Shown piece after piece: positions 34,213 to 39,807 of a DNA stretch of 64,000 nucleotides. The notes under the pieces were generated by a model. That model saw nothing but the letters and a program-made list of their open reading frames with translations. It was not told the origin of the DNA and did no database searches. The translations under genes were made by a program, and so were the position numbers. Each line of letters starts with the position of its first letter. Position 1 is the first letter of the stretch. The stretch is from Chloroflexi bacterium HGW-Chloroflexi-2 (lineage in GTDB: Bacteria > Chloroflexota > Anaerolineae > Anaerolineales > Anaerolineaceae): NCBI GenBank assembly GCA_002840735.1, contig PHBY01000014.1, forward strand, positions 1 to 64,000. Direction: 5' to 3'.

Positions 34213-35925
34213 TCATGCATCGAAGCCTAATGATTTGATCAGGTCGTCGGTGGATCTGGTTGTGACATCTGCCTTGCCGAGCAATTCATCCCAGAATTTT
34301 TGATCATAACGGCGCGAGCGCAGGGGAATGGGCATGGGGACTCCCCAGCCGAGCATCAGGACTTCCTCTTTGGGTTGCAAACGGGAAAGCATGCCCCGCA
34401 AGGCATCCCGGCCAGCCAGACCGGAGAGCACGGAGGAGATGTCGTCTTCATCTCCCAGCCAGCCACTGATACGGGTACCTAATTGCGACATGACTTCGTC
34501 GTAGATTTGCGAGGGGCGCTGGTCGATAATCAACAGGGTGACGTAATACTTGCGCATCTCTCGGGCGATGGTGCTGAAGGTGGTCTGAGCAGACATTTCG
34601 CGATTGAGGAGTTTGTGGGCTTCCTCCACGACGATCACCAGCGGACGCGGCGCCTGGCTGTTTTTGCCACCACGGAAGTCGTTGGTTTTTTCCTCCCAGG
34701 ATTTACGAATTTTTCTTGTCAGCAGATTGGTGACCAGCAAATAGTCCAGATCGCGTTCGAAATCTCCAAAGGAGAGAATGATGTGTTTGCCCTGTTCCAG
34801 GTAGCGGATGATGTCCTGCAAGGGTTGTCCGGGAGGGTTCTGGCTGATGTACGGCAGGTTGAAAATGCGGTTCATTTTGGTGTGTAATGCCTCGGCAGCC
34901 ATGGCGTTCATTCCATTTTGATTGGCCCAAAAAGCGACACTGTCCGGGGCAGGCACTTTTTTACCATCATCATTTTCGATCATGGCACCATTTTTCAGTT
35001 GTTTGAATTCATGAAACCAGTGTTTTTCCCCGAAGTGGTGCACAAGGGCATCCAGGGTGGCAGCGGTGGTCTCGCGCAGGTTTAATTCACGGGAAAGCAT
35101 CAGCACATCTTCGGGTAAAATATCCGATTCAGCCAGCTGGAGATTGAAATCTGCACTTTTGCCACGGATGGTAGCACCAGCACCCAGGCCAACCACTTTG
35201 ACCTTGAGTGGGAATTTGGTGCGCAAACCGGCTACTTTCAGGTTGGTATCCGAAGATGTATCGTCATAACCATACTCGTTGTGCATATCGAAGACAAGCA
35301 GGGATGCCAGGTCGTGGTGGATCAATCCGGAGAGGATGATGCGGGTCAGGAAAGATTTGCCGGTACCGGTGGCACCGAAGATCCCGGAGGAACGCTGCAC
35401 GAATTTCTCCAGGTTAAGAACAACCGGATGATTTTGTTCGCGGGTGCTGCCAACTACAAAATTGCCCTTCTTCTGCGGATCACCGAAGATCTGCGCCACG
35501 TCCCCGGCATGTGCTGCCCGGGCAATGGCGTGATGAGCCGGGATGGTTTTGACTGGTTTGGCGCGGGTTTCATCATCGGGATTCTGTGCGCGCCAGGCCG
35601 GGTATTCGGGCGAACCGGGATCGGGTCCGCGATCGAGCATCAACATGGGCATGACCTCGAGATTGGTGAAGAGCGTCTGCCCGTGTAGCAGGCTGGATAA
35701 ATGGGCAGGCAGTCGGTTTTCGCTCTGCTCATCGGCAAAGCGCGGATCGGTGCTGCCGAGCTGCAGGTCGGTGATCAGTCCGTAAAAATTGTCGTTGCCA
35801 GCTTCAATGACCACAAAGCTGCCCTCCTGTACTTCATGCGCGGGAACGGTCAGCCGGACATTGAGATTATTTTTAAGCCCACCGCCAACCACATAGCCGA
35901 TGTTTTTACCAGGATCAATTGCCAT
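34213..35925 (-). CDS. herA: HerA-type DNA translocase ATPase
   Basis: A 570-residue ATPase of the HerA/FtsK superfamily. An N-terminal HAS barrel (1-60, with DNFYGLITDLQL at 45-56) is followed by Walker A GATGTGKS (184-191), Walker B LLVFDMHNEYG (209-219) and a second conserved motif, LVIVVEEAHKLL, near residue 450. The hexamer pumps DNA and activates NurA during end resection. It is the third gene of nurA-HAS-herA, starting 1 bp after the middle gene stops. Use in repair is the default reading. Confidence 0.9.
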   Translation of the reverse strand: MAIDPGKNIGYVVGGGLKNNLNVRLTVPAHEVQEGSFVVIEAGNDNFYGLITDLQLGSTDPRFADEQSENRLPAHLSSLLHGQTLFTNLEVMPMLMLDRGPDPGSPEYPAWRAQNPDDETRAKPVKTIPAHHAIARAAHAGDVAQIFGDPQKKGNFVVGSTREQNHPVVLNLEKFVQRSSGIFGATGTGKSFLTRIILSGLIHHDLASLLVFDMHNEYGYDDTSSDTNLKVAGLRTKFPLKVKVVGLGAGATIRGKSADFNLQLAESDILPEDVLMLSRELNLRETTAATLDALVHHFGEKHWFHEFKQLKNGAMIENDDGKKVPAPDSVAFWANQNGMNAMAAEALHTKMNRIFNLPYISQNPPGQPLQDIIRYLEQGKHIILSFGDFERDLDYLLVTNLLTRKIRKSWEEKTNDFRGGKNSQAPRPLVIVVEEAHKLLNREMSAQTTFSTIAREMRKYYVTLLIIDQRPSQIYDEVMSQLGTRISGWLGDEDDISSVLSGLAGRDALRGMLSRLQPKEEVLMLGWGVPMPIPLRSRRYDQKFWDELLGKADVTTRSTDDLIKSLGFDA

Positions 35926-35926
35926 A

Positions 35927-36544
35927 TCAACCCTCCTCGTGTGTCAATTTTGCATCCGCCAGCGCACCCAGGACATTCATCAGGGTGGCGTAATCATCCC
36001 GTAAAAGCACGATCAATTCCTGAATGGCAGTGTTGATCCAGTCTGGTTCGTTCTGTGCCTGATGAGCCTGGGCAGTCAGTTTCAAATGGCTGACCAGAAT
36101 TTCGGCTACCGGGTAATCCTGCCCTCTGAGAATGTGCCGGAAATAACCAAAGCGAGCCGCAGAGGTAAAGGTACACAGTTGTTGATCATTACAAACATAG
36201 ACTTCATCCAGTGTCAGGGGTGGACGGGGTGGCAGAAGATGAAAGACCTGGTCATTGTGTTGGTAACCGCAAAAGACGATACTGATTTCCACCGGGACGG
36301 TGCGATTGTTGCGGTTATCGGCGATGACTTCCGGTTTGATATGTTCGGTGGTGACGAGTTGCCTTACCAGTCCATCATCATCGATGTGCAGATCATAAAT
36401 CAAGCCGAAGATCTGTAGGTCTCTGGATGGCTGTATGGTCACCATCCCACCGAGCTGTGGTAAATCCAGTGATGCCACCCGGCAGCCTGCGATACAACCG
36501 CTGGTGCTGGCGCGCAGCAGAAATCCAATCTGATTGGTGTTCAT
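35927..36544 (-). CDS. Stand-alone HAS-barrel-like protein between nurA and herA
   Basis: A 205-residue protein with no known role. Residues 43-54 (LQIFGLIYDLHI) match, in the same register, the HAS-barrel strand of the adjacent HerA (residues 45-56, DNFYGLITDLQL). The first 60 residues therefore look like a free HAS barrel, the module HerA uses to dock NurA. The C-terminal half is helical (PDWINTAIQELIVLLRDDYA). It overlaps nurA by 4 bp and precedes herA by 1 bp, so all three are translationally coupled. I infer a third component of the complex. Confidence 0.7.
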   Translation of the reverse strand: MNTNQIGFLLRASTSGCIAGCRVASLDLPQLGGMVTIQPSRDLQIFGLIYDLHIDDDGLVRQLVTTEHIKPEVIADNRNNRTVPVEISIVFCGYQHNDQVFHLLPPRPPLTLDEVYVCNDQQLCTFTSAARFGYFRHILRGQDYPVAEILVSHLKLTAQAHQAQNEPDWINTAIQELIVLLRDDYATLMNVLGALADAKLTHEEG

Positions 36545-37713
36545 GAACGATACCTCGTCTTTCCACTTAAGTCTTTATGATACTGTTTGGAGGATTTATC
36601 CCCGGGTTCCAGACCCTGACTGAGTAAGGTTTGCTGCAACAATCCCAGTAAATGCTGGCGCTCCTGATAGCTGACCAGGGCGATCTCATGTGCGCGGTGC
36701 AAAATATACGGGTAGGCTTTCACGCCCATGATCTGGCACTGATCCAGCAGGTGATGATGAATGAGATCGATGTTTTCTGGCTTTATAAGCACCCAGGATG
36801 GGATCTCCACACGAGCGATTTGCGGTTTGTTTTCACGACCGATATTGAGGTAGAAAAAGTGAATTGCCAATGGCCCATGGAAGCGTTTGGCACTGCTGGA
36901 ATTCAAGCGGAAGATGGCAGACCGCTGCTGGGGTTGTAATACCCGGCTGAACAGATCCGCATCGGTGATGCCAGGTAACTGCCGGACGCGTCCTGCTTCG
37001 GAGAGACGATCTTCTGGCAACAAGGTTAATTCCAGGCTGCGAATGAGCAGGTCACTGCGTGGTTTATCAACGTAACCAGCTGTCAGTACTGCCAGCTGCG
37101 CCATTTCTGCCAGGATGTTGAGATAATCTGCCAGCAGGTTCTGATATTCTGCTGTTTCTCGTCCCTCGCGGAACAATTCCAATGGCCCATCGGTCAGCGT
37201 CAGGACGGTCTGGCTTTCCTGTAAGGCTGCCTGCAGGAGATGACTGCGCTCTTTATGATCCCGTCGCAAGGCGATCAGTTCTTCCCCAACCAAAAAACCT
37301 TGTTCGTTATAAATATCCTGCGCGTAGAGAAGATCGCTTTCAATGTTTTCGCGGGGTGTTGTATCTGGTTGCATGCGCATCAAGCCGACATTAATGACCC
37401 CAAATTGAATGGCCAGGTGTTGATCGGGGATGATTTGCGATCCATCCGCCGCCAGCAGGACGATGGGTTCAGAGGAAGGAGTAGTCGCGTGAGTGAAATC
37501 CAAAGGTTCACTGGTGGGGAGGGCACAACGTAAATCCGGATTGGCAATCAATGTCGAATGAATGCGCTCCTGGAGTTGTTCACTTTCCTGGCTAGATTGT
37601 CTGAGGATTGAAAGAGCAGTTTCCAGGTTTTGTTCCCGTAATTTTGCCTGAACCGGGGCTTCCTGGCCGAATTTCTGGATGGCAGAACGGATTTGCTGGA
37701 AATTAATGGGCAT
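36541..37713 (-). CDS. nurA: NurA-type 5'-3' nuclease
   Basis: A 390-residue NurA-domain nuclease. The first catalytic Asp motif is IVLLAADGSQIIPDQH (about 84-99) and the second acidic strand is TLTDGPLEL (about 173). An N-terminal helical region includes a coiled coil (about 20-55). NurA degrades DNA ends when driven by HerA. The start follows AAAGGGG. First gene of the operon, under an extended -10 promoter. Confidence 0.87.
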   Translation of the reverse strand: MPINFQQIRSAIQKFGQEAPVQAKLREQNLETALSILRQSSQESEQLQERIHSTLIANPDLRCALPTSEPLDFTHATTPSSEPIVLLAADGSQIIPDQHLAIQFGVINVGLMRMQPDTTPRENIESDLLYAQDIYNEQGFLVGEELIALRRDHKERSHLLQAALQESQTVLTLTDGPLELFREGRETAEYQNLLADYLNILAEMAQLAVLTAGYVDKPRSDLLIRSLELTLLPEDRLSEAGRVRQLPGITDADLFSRVLQPQQRSAIFRLNSSSAKRFHGPLAIHFFYLNIGRENKPQIARVEIPSWVLIKPENIDLIHHHLLDQCQIMGVKAYPYILHRAHEIALVSYQERQHLLGLLQQTLLSQGLEPGDKSSKQYHKDLSGKTRYRS

Positions 37714-37941: not shown

Positions 37942-39174
37942 ATGAAAAAGATTGTCATCGGATTGATTGTATTGAGTTTCCTGGCCGGGTTCATAGCATA
38001 TGTGCCAGTATCCGTCGCAGGCTCAGCAGCCCTGGCGGTAACCAGCACAAATGTCCCCACGCAAGCGACAAAGACCAGTACAGCTGAGACAACTAATGAT
38101 ACGGATACATTTCCAACAGGCATTAATCCCTTAACAGGTTTACCCGTGACGAATCCCGAGAATTTATTGCTGCCACCCGCCATGGTTTCGATCACCAATT
38201 TCCCGGTCAGTTCACGACCCCAGGCTGGGTTATCCTTCTCTCCCTTTGTATTTGAGATTTATATTGGTGAAGGCATGACTCGTTTTCTGGCTATGTTTTA
38301 TGGAGATTTTCCACAAATCCCAGAAGACTCTGAAAATGCTGGTAGTGGGACAAGCGTTGGATCGGTAACGGATAATATGATGGTTGGTCCCATTCGTTCC
38401 GGCCGCTTGCCGTATGAAAGCATGCGCAAGTTATACAATGGTTTTCTGGTGATGGCTTCGGGCTCTTCCCAGGTAGTGGCGAATTTAAGTCAATACGCCA
38501 ATATCTATGGATCGGATGCCGATAACATCAATTCCGCCATGATTGATGTGACCAAACTGGAAGAGATCGCCGAAAAGAATCAAAATCGATTGGGAGAAGC
38601 CAGCCTGAGTGGTTTGAGTTTTCAACAGGAACCTCCGGCTGGGGGCAAGGCTGCTGAACGCATCTGGTTAAAATATGCTTACCTGAACCAGATCAACTGG
38701 CGTTATGATGAAGAATCAGGAGCCTACTTACGCTTTCAGGATCGCGCCGATGCCACTACCTTCGAATTGATGACCGATCGTCTGACGGGTGAACCCCTGG
38801 CATTTGAAAATGTCGTGATCCTGTTTGCCAACCATGAAGTGGTCACACCGACCATCATTGATATTGATCTGCTTTATATGCGCAAAATGCCTGCCCTTTT
38901 ATTTCGGGATGGTCAGATGTATGAAATATTCTGGACCACGAAAAGTGGTGCATACGAGGTGCAGACTGGCAAGCTGCGCCCCATTCGCTTCATAGATGCA
39001 GAAGGTAAAGAATTTCCACTGAAGCCCGGGCAAACCTGGGTACAGGTGGTTCAGCCCTTTACTCCTTATTATGAAGTACCGGATAGCGAGGTGTATTACG
39101 ACCTGCTCAATAAAAAGGAACCCGGTTCAGGGGTCTGGGCAGTCAGATGGTACCCACCGGCCGGTGCCCGCTAA
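37942..39174 (+). CDS. DUF3048 (YerB-like) exported protein
   Basis: A 410-residue protein with an N-terminal signal/anchor (residues 4-28) and a Thr/Ser-rich linker to about 60. The DUF3048 region includes NPLTGLPV, SRPQAGLSFSPFVFEIYIGE, FLAMFYGDF and GPIRSGRLPY, and the C-terminal half has VVILFANHEV and GQTWVQVV. YerB-type proteins are exported and of unknown function. ATG follows TTGGAGAATTAGAA. A terminator follows. Confidence 0.88.
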   Translation: MKKIVIGLIVLSFLAGFIAYVPVSVAGSAALAVTSTNVPTQATKTSTAETTNDTDTFPTGINPLTGLPVTNPENLLLPPAMVSITNFPVSSRPQAGLSFSPFVFEIYIGEGMTRFLAMFYGDFPQIPEDSENAGSGTSVGSVTDNMMVGPIRSGRLPYESMRKLYNGFLVMASGSSQVVANLSQYANIYGSDADNINSAMIDVTKLEEIAEKNQNRLGEASLSGLSFQQEPPAGGKAAERIWLKYAYLNQINWRYDEESGAYLRFQDRADATTFELMTDRLTGEPLAFENVVILFANHEVVTPTIIDIDLLYMRKMPALLFRDGQMYEIFWTTKSGAYEVQTGKLRPIRFIDAEGKEFPLKPGQTWVQVVQPFTPYYEVPDSEVYYDLLNKKEPGSGVWAVRWYPPAGAR

Positions 39175-39181
39175 AATTACA

Positions 39182-39210
39182 GAAAGGGATCCCTGAAGGG
39201 TCCCTTTTTA
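39182..39210 (+). terminator. Terminator after the DUF3048 gene
   Basis: AAAGGGA (39183-39189) pairs with TCCCTTT (39201-39207), followed by TTA. Confidence 0.8.
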
Positions 39211-39287
39211 TTCGCTTTATACACGCTAAAACCCCACCTGGAATCATTGATACAATTATTTTCCAGGTATTTCAGGTGGAGGATCGT

Positions 39288-39807
39288 ATGGATAGAAGCG
39301 TGTTTCAAGGCATTTACAGTCAACAAAAAGCATATTTCAACCATCAGATGACAAAATCATATGAACAGCGGGTTGAAGTCCTCAAGGATTTAAGAGCACA
39401 GATCCTGAAATATGAATCGCGCATCATCCAGACCATGCAGGCTGATATGGCAAAACCGGAAACGGAAGCAACCGGCCGAGAGATCTGGTACGTCCTGGAG
39501 GAGATTGGATATACCTTACGACAATTGAAAAGTTGGATGAAGCCCCAAAGAAAGCGAACACCACTTTTGCATTTCAGGGCGTCCAGTGCAATTTACCCCG
39601 AACCGTATGGACAGGTATTGATCATGGCACCCTGGAATTATCCTTTCCATTTATTGTTTTCTCCGCTGGTGGGAGCTCTGGCAGCAGGGAATACAGCCAT
39701 ATTGAAACTCTCAGAACTGGCCGGATATCGCCCTGCGCTACCCGCCTTATAAAATCAAAAACAAAACCATGAGAAAACTATTTAAGATTGCCAGCTGGCT
39801 GGTATAG
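39288..39807 (+). pseudogene. Aldehyde dehydrogenase gene with a large internal deletion
   Basis: From ATG 39288 (behind GGTGGAGGATCGT) the frame encodes the N-terminal 145 residues of a class-3-type aldehyde dehydrogenase, with EPYGQVLIMAPWNYPFHLLF and LVGALAAGNTAILKLSE. It then breaks at about 39718. In another frame the DNA continues as DIALRYPPYKIKNKTMRKLF to a TAG at 39807, the usual extreme C-terminus of the same family. The catalytic Cys region and about 280 residues are missing. The parts are joined by deletion, so no active enzyme is expected. Confidence 0.85.

Follow-up and report, generated by a model that had tools for sequence, protein, structure and literature searches.

What is encoded between nurA and herA in Chloroflexi bacterium HGW-Chloroflexi-2, and what could this product do beside a nuclease and a DNA-translocating ATPase? 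The described HerA–NurA complexes are two-protein assemblies of six HerA and two NurA subunits (PMC9960219, PMC12977600). In Deinococcus radiodurans, Thermococcus kodakarensis, and Thermus, NurA and HerA are encoded side by side, as they are here, and the nurA stop of Thermus overlaps the start of hepA (PMC5448004). The difference is that a third conserved gene, the middle gene, lies between nurA and herA in the window, that is, the whole stretch of 64,000 nucleotides analyzed (contig PHBY01000014.1). The features are as follows.

36541..37713, minus strand: nurA, nuclease, 390 aa (Pfam NurA PF09376, E = 1.5e-20)
36541..36544, minus strand: 4 bp shared by the nurA stop and the middle-gene start (ORF coordinates)
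35927..36544, minus strand: middle gene, stand-alone HAS-barrel protein, 205 aa (ORF; relatives; codon differences)
36191..36544, minus strand: HAS barrel of the middle protein, residues 1–118 (hhalign to HerA 5–149; AlphaFold2 model; PDB matches)
36296..36382, minus strand: barrel insert of the middle protein, residues 55–83 (model and alignments; helices 59–65 and 71–80)
36218..36235, minus strand: LPPRPP motif of the middle protein, residues 104–109 (in 77 sequences, every position is invariant or conserved to at least 90%)
35930..36190, minus strand: C-terminal helical part of the middle protein, residues 119–205 (structure models)
34213..35925, minus strand: herA, DNA-translocating ATPase, 570 aa (DUF87 PF01935, E = 9.4e-25; Walker A GATGTGKS)
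35476..35925, minus strand: HAS-barrel region of HerA itself, residues 1–150 (PF09378, E = 2.5e-7 at residues 9–69; hhalign)

The initial annotation had described the middle gene as locked into the operon by a 4-bp overlap with nurA and a 1-bp gap to herA, and both distances were confirmed by the ORF coordinates (the gap is base 35926). In the whole genome, nurA alone matches PF09376 at E ≤ 0.001, and the NurA domain protein and the DUF87 HerA are encoded in one gene cluster, which is the arrangement of a HerA–NurA system. Among 101 genomes from the genus, family, and order of the window genome, 88 contained a match to the middle protein, whose nearest named relative, on a Chloroflexi MAG contig, is 94% identical. 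The middle gene and that of the nearest relative (L003) differ by 51 synonymous and 12 nonsynonymous codons, and 95 silent and 32 residue-changing differences were counted against another relative.

A distant relative of the HerA HAS barrel

The 12-residue resemblance from which the initial annotation started, between residues 43–54 of the middle protein (LQIFGLIYDLHI) and residues 45–56 of HerA (DNFYGLITDLQL), was quoted correctly, but the match alone is not significant. A two-sequence BLASTP gave no alignment at this place and a best E value of 1.5 elsewhere; the match is at chance level and was rejected as stand-alone evidence for a HAS barrel. Searched alone, the middle protein of the window had no match at E ≤ 1 to any family of Pfam, NCBIfam, PADLOC, or PHROGs, did not reach the Pfam gathering score for HAS-barrel (25.2 bits), and gave one unrelated match (E = 1.3) in a phmmer search against PDB sequences.

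The similarity to HerA rises beyond chance once relatives are added, and shuffled profiles scored far below. A profile of 171 proteins plus that of the window (103 left after the hhalign filter) was aligned with a profile of 121 HerAs plus that of the window. In the whole-profile comparison, residues 2–129 of the middle protein aligned with HerA 5–149 at a probability of 86% (E = 5.5e-6 for one comparison). Residues 1–70 against HerA 1–95 gave a probability of 91% (E = 1.2e-6), and residues 1–112 against HerA 1–160 gave 81% (E = 1.2e-5) with a score of 35.1; when the columns were shuffled 100 times on each side of the last pair, the maximum scores were 17.5 and 18.5. The hhalign controls (NurA, the HerA motor, and reversed HerA) all had probabilities under 1%, and a relationship of the middle protein with NurA was rejected at 0.7%. 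Pfam HAS-barrel was matched weakly at E ≤ 1 by HMMER in 22 of 45 and 33 of 85 relatives of the middle protein (best E = 3.4e-8), and no other Pfam family matched more than one member. Searches of 85 members against NCBIfam returned seven families with one member each (best E = 0.012), and a weak match to a DUF4297 profile (E = 0.11) was treated as chance.

An AlphaFold2 model of the middle protein, built from 77 sequences, had a mean pLDDT of 90 and a pTM of 0.84. Its strands are at residues 5–12, 16–22, 34–40, 43–54, 84–96, 99–101, and 114–117; two helices (59–65 and 71–80) lie within the barrel, and helices alone follow the barrel up to residue 197. The barrel expected by the initial annotation was thus seen in the model, but not its confinement to residues 1–70, as it extends to about residue 118. 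Among the best 50 of 453 Foldseek matches, 41 were HerA or HerA complexes, five were TdpAB, three belonged to an anti-phage defence complex, and the remaining one was an unnamed bacterial protein (best E = 7.7e-6). A second structural alignment gave a best match with a Z score of 11.4 and an rmsd of 3.2 over 108 residues, and its first 24 rows (Z = 11.4 to 9.5) were of the same kinds. The N-terminal barrel of F1-ATPase subunits shares the barrel fold (Z up to 8.8), but these matches come after the HerA-type ones, with lower Z scores and shorter alignments than HerA, and no operon link to them was seen.

The C-terminal helices were predicted with a pLDDT of 86 when folded alone. The earlier statement that this half has no recognized match was borne out: no match to PDB folds was found at E ≤ 0.001, and the fold matches, none better than E = 2.0 and Z = 5.4, were treated as noise, as were PDB sequence matches to designed repeat proteins (E = 0.047 and worse). 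Profile comparison of this half with HerA or NurA by hhalign gave probabilities under 2%. A missing match is not proof of a new fold.

The middle protein matches no P-loop family in Pfam, NCBIfam, or PADLOC, contains no GK[ST] sequence, and has no RecA-like motor with Walker A and B motifs. It is a distant relative of the N-terminal HAS barrel of HerA, in which a helical part replaces the motor. The profiles, the weak Pfam matches, the AlphaFold2 model, and the PDB matches agree on this point, and the initial annotation as a HAS-barrel protein devoid of a motor is upheld. It shares with PF09378 of HerA the fold, the sequence profile, and a helical insert after the fourth strand; unlike the HerA domain, it stands alone and carries unmatched helices in place of the RecA-like motor. 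The HerA or TdpAB chains of DUF4297–HerA, SIR2–HerA, and TdpAB are among its top structural matches. In DUF4297–HerA, the effector docks onto the HAS domain, and the excerpted text of the same article mentions no free HAS-barrel subunit in these systems, unlike the case here (PMC11291478). We found no description of a free HAS-barrel protein with NurA or HerA in the PubMed Central texts searched, as far as their excerpts go; a 2004 comparative paper on FtsK and HerA, outside this search, is a possible exception. The HAS-like barrel of a BREX protein is not the same case, as the excerpts place it inside a helicase (PMC12839542).

Association with nurA and herA in Chloroflexota and haloarchaeal plasmids

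The order nurA–middle gene–herA, whose conservation the initial annotation had proposed to survey, is widespread in Chloroflexota and was found in close relatives, named loci, and diverged loci. Among the 88 loci of the same genus, family, and order, a nurA ORF was present in 86 and herA in 74; herA was not found in the other 14, some of which end early (30 of the 88 loci have a flank of at most 1.5 kb). Of 80 named loci from a genome contig collection, which share genomes with this set, 77 had nurA at most 1 kb away, 66 had herA at most 1.5 kb away, and 64 had both. The spacing between nurA and the middle gene was exactly −4 in 28 of the 77. For 40 diverged loci of the phylum, nurA was found in 32, herA in 29, and at least one of them in 37.

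A first profile detected the middle protein in 157 of 400 Chloroflexota genomes. In 19 chosen nurA loci, 17 of them from genomes unmatched by this profile, a broader profile revealed the middle gene in 11, with herA also present in 10; the other eight had neither. With profile A4, the middle protein was found in 219 of the 400 genomes and PF09376 NurA in 236, and the two occurred together in 216 (Fisher p = 2e-84, phylogeny ignored). Co-occurrence with NurA is thus near-obligate. The linkage to herA was seen in 20 chosen genomes: 18 had the middle protein, and herA directly adjoined its gene in 17. In 13 of these 17, nurA was more than 200 kb distant or on a different contig, whereas two of the remaining four had no NurA match and the place of nurA was not listed for two. 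The distant nurA with an adjoining herA, together with the co-occurrence, indicates that the middle protein tracks NurA across genomes and herA on the chromosome. Over 146 loci, with some genomes represented twice, the pairwise distances of the middle protein correlated with those of NurA (r = 0.83) and HerA (r = 0.86), and the third correlation among the three proteins was 0.91, values that shared ancestry alone could give. No natural fusion of the middle protein with NurA or HerA was present among 655 ORFs with a match.

Exceptions were found on both sides. NurA occurred without a middle-protein match in 20 of the 236 genomes, and the NurA scores were weak in several of them. HerA was searched in 12 of these 20. 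In four of the 12 (G233, G271, G197, and G327), herA is cut at its start by the contig end, and the expected place of the middle gene was therefore not assembled. A HerA match was absent in two and weak in one, and five (G189, G342, G343, G384, and G112) had a diverged HerA-like gene with no recognizable copy adjoining it. The middle protein was present in the absence of a NurA match in three of the 219 genomes (G108, G238, and G349). As a separate observation, a second, diverged type of HerA-like protein occurs with no adjoining HAS-only gene in some Chloroflexota (G189, G343, and G384), and the middle-protein profile weakly touches the N-terminal part of the diverged HerA in the G343 and G384 loci (E about 0.06).

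Searches were made in Chloroflexota genomes, in the genome contig collection scanned with two patterns, and in plasmid, phage, and viral-contig sets. A tblastn search of the plasmids with a diverged Chloroflexota copy (L246) matched four haloarchaeal plasmid records (E = 7e-18 to 6e-9), and a second diverged copy matched the same four; the window copy and another diverged copy matched none. Megaplasmids of Halobaculum marinum, Natrinema zhouii, and halophilic archaeon DL31 carry genes annotated, in this order, as metallophosphoesterase, SMC ATPase, NurA, ‘hypothetical protein’ (the middle gene), and ATP-binding protein or DUF87 protein. In the fourth plasmid, from Halorussus salilacus, herA comes after the middle gene, and the matches to nurA are located where the circular record begins. 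The four plasmid records that match the haloarchaeal NurA are the same four that carry the middle gene, and they alone of 167 plasmid records matched HerA along 80% or more of its length. The four haloarchaeal middle proteins had no Pfam match at E ≤ 0.01. These loci resemble those of thermophilic archaea in having a metallophosphoesterase and an SMC ATPase upstream, comparable to mre11 and rad50 (PMC7776575). The models of the Rad50 zinc hook and of SbcC Walker B matched the SMC protein weakly, below their cut-offs, and from the annotation and these matches the pair may correspond to Mre11 and Rad50. In Halorussus, a ‘DES-1 beta-lactamase’ predicted by PLSDB (L288:2710-2871) partly coincides with the 3′ end of herA and is probably spurious.

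No relative of the middle protein was found in the phage set, and none of 22 pattern matches in viral contigs was a relative, with patterns suited to close relatives. In the control genomes, Synechococcus elongatus had a NurA match, and Haloferax volcanii had a PF09376 match over the cut-off, against a review whose excerpt reports HerA and NurA as absent from this species (PMC7776575). The UCYN-A1 group has orthogroups for a ‘HAS barrel domain protein’ and for NurA (excerpt of PMC12234771), and cyanobacteria may therefore have a relative of the middle protein. In Chloroflexota and on haloarchaeal plasmids, HerA and NurA are thus accompanied by a HAS-only protein that is conserved but unannotated.

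Proposed role at the HerA–NurA collar

The same gene arrangement across much of the phylum and on haloarchaeal plasmids suggests that the machine has a third part there. Our favored reading is that the HerA–NurA DNA-end-processing machine has the middle protein as a third subunit, one that is not an ATPase and serves as an adaptor at the collar; we give this a probability of about 0.55. The protein would form part of the HAS-barrel collar or lie on it, between a HerA ring of six-fold and a NurA dimer of two-fold symmetry, and would contact NurA through its insert (residues 55–83), which follows the same barrel strand as the insert of HerA. As an adaptor, it may fix the coupling of the nuclease to the motor, and the C-terminal helices could provide an extra contact or a regulatory surface. 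We infer the binding to NurA and HerA from the homology and the genomic association.

The insert of the middle protein comes after the fourth strand, and that of HerA likewise follows its GLITDLQL strand; from this topology, the former is probably equivalent to the NurA-docking helix of HerA. NurA binding by the HerA of D. radiodurans requires three acidic residues (78, 80, and 81), and every NurA touches four HAS domains (PMC9960219), and in T. kodakarensis, the contacts are made by all HAS α1 helices and the preceding loops (PMC12977600). In 62 named loci, the inserts of both proteins are as conserved as the barrel strands and differ in sequence, being GaTDPRFADEQSExRLP in HerA and DDDGLVRQLVT...DNRxNR in the middle protein, whose DDGLVRQL and DNRxNR are conserved in Anaerolineae. 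In 35 phylum-wide loci, the inserts are less conserved than the strands, at 2.02 versus 2.24 bits for the middle protein and 2.01 versus 2.37 bits for HerA. The insert of the middle protein has a mean net charge of −3.0 in the 77-sequence alignment; acidity is not special to the insert, because residues 146–205 average −4.4 in the same alignment. The idea that the middle protein stands in for a decayed dock of HerA was set aside, as the HerA insert is conserved in the 62 named loci, if less so phylum-wide: HerA retains its own insert, and a substitute dock is therefore not needed. The insert data would fit, and do not prove, a subunit that supplies the collar with a docking face of a second kind instead of making up for a lost one.

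The initial annotation had also considered a competitor or a cap. As such a regulator, a free HAS barrel might compete with HerA for NurA or cap the HerA exit, holding the nuclease inactive until the machine engages a DNA end. A docking module that lacks a motor would suit this function, the start of the middle gene overlaps the nurA stop in many genomes, and the insert is acidic like the docking patch of HerA in D. radiodurans (PMC9960219). However, NurA is kept in 216 of the 219 genomes with the middle protein and herA adjoins when nurA has moved, an association probably stricter than expected of an inhibitor, and the differing inserts of the middle protein and HerA, both kept in Anaerolineae, fit distinct sites as well as they fit competition. 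We consider a regulator unlikely. The persistent linkage to herA with nurA elsewhere also suits an assembly or loading factor, a transient partner that aids ring closure or selects the hexamer and then leaves; archaeal HerA forms a heptamer and a hexamer, and NurA selects the hexamer (PMC5715905). Against this, the middle protein is near-obligate with NurA too, and the stop/start overlap seen in many genomes suggests that it is produced together with NurA. A role in HerA assembly or loading is improbable.

A different kind of explanation assigns the middle gene to an anti-phage HerA system and not to housekeeping DNA repair. HerA pairs with other nucleases in defence (PMC11291478), the PADLOC HerA models match the ATPase of the window, the haloarchaeal copies are on megaplasmids (the sole archaeal records searched), and an antiviral role for HerA–NurA was suggested by the authors of the T. 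kodakarensis study (PMC12977600). The distribution speaks against this: the protein is widespread in Chloroflexota, with one match in nearly every genome having any, no relative was found in the phage set or, with patterns suited to close relatives, in the viral contigs, and the plasmid copies are haloarchaeal only. Moreover, HerA scored 66.9 of 800 and 57.5 of 850 bits, below the NCBIfam cut-offs for anti-phage HerA. A dedicated defence function is accordingly very doubtful.

The adaptor reading can be extended, more tentatively, to an obligate three-protein form of HerA–NurA in Chloroflexota and on haloarchaeal plasmids. A HAS-only ring or a mixed HAS collar between motor and nuclease would ease the six-to-two symmetry mismatch and might set the path and timing of DNA delivery to the nuclease, a design that would then be common to bacteria and archaea. 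A third protein that copies the docking module, retained in much of a phylum and found in archaeal operons of like kind, would change the view of motor–nuclease coupling, as HerA–NurA has so far been described as a two-protein system. The middle gene is unannotated and directly testable, and it occurs in cultured strains, among them Levilinea saccharolytica KIBI-1, Longilinea arvoryzae KOME-1, and Anaerolinea thermolimosa IMO-1.

Cell context and neighboring genes

SbcD is present on another contig of the window genome, and PDDEXK_1 matches were found in nearby frames of 1018 and 1088 residues, which we read as a putative AddAB-like pair. HerA–NurA as the sole resection route of this genome was rejected, as SbcD and the AddAB-like pair are present.

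Several observations concern the genes around the operon. In diverged Chloroflexota (L213, L218, L219, L220, L225, and L234), an extra gene lies between nurA and the middle gene; it encodes a TPR protein in L219 and appears, by reading, lipoprotein-like or methyltransferase-like in others, and that of L218 had no Pfam match. At the junction between herA and the middle gene, relatives repeatedly carry small genes of two unrelated kinds (for example, L012:1019-1468, L064:3643-4062, L042:3614-4084, and L135:5618-6025), encoding a 23S rRNA intervening-sequence-type protein (PF05635) and a PDDEXK_3 protein (PF13366), with two examples of each checked by Pfam. By similarity to one example each, 11 matches of each gene were located at the junction in 182 loci, a count in which L120 enters twice and some genomes are represented by two loci, and all fetched loci, which are centered on the operon, gave 11 and 13 matches to the two genes. 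This junction looks like an insertion hot spot; that of the window has no insert. The 116-kb contig NZ_DF967970.1 of Anaerolinea thermolimosa carries the locus twice (L143 and L147) with equal match scores, which is either a recent duplication or an assembly artefact. At positions 39147–39752 of the window, the translation of a 201-residue ORF resembles the N-terminal part of an aldehyde dehydrogenase and ends early, and this ORF is possibly a decayed gene.
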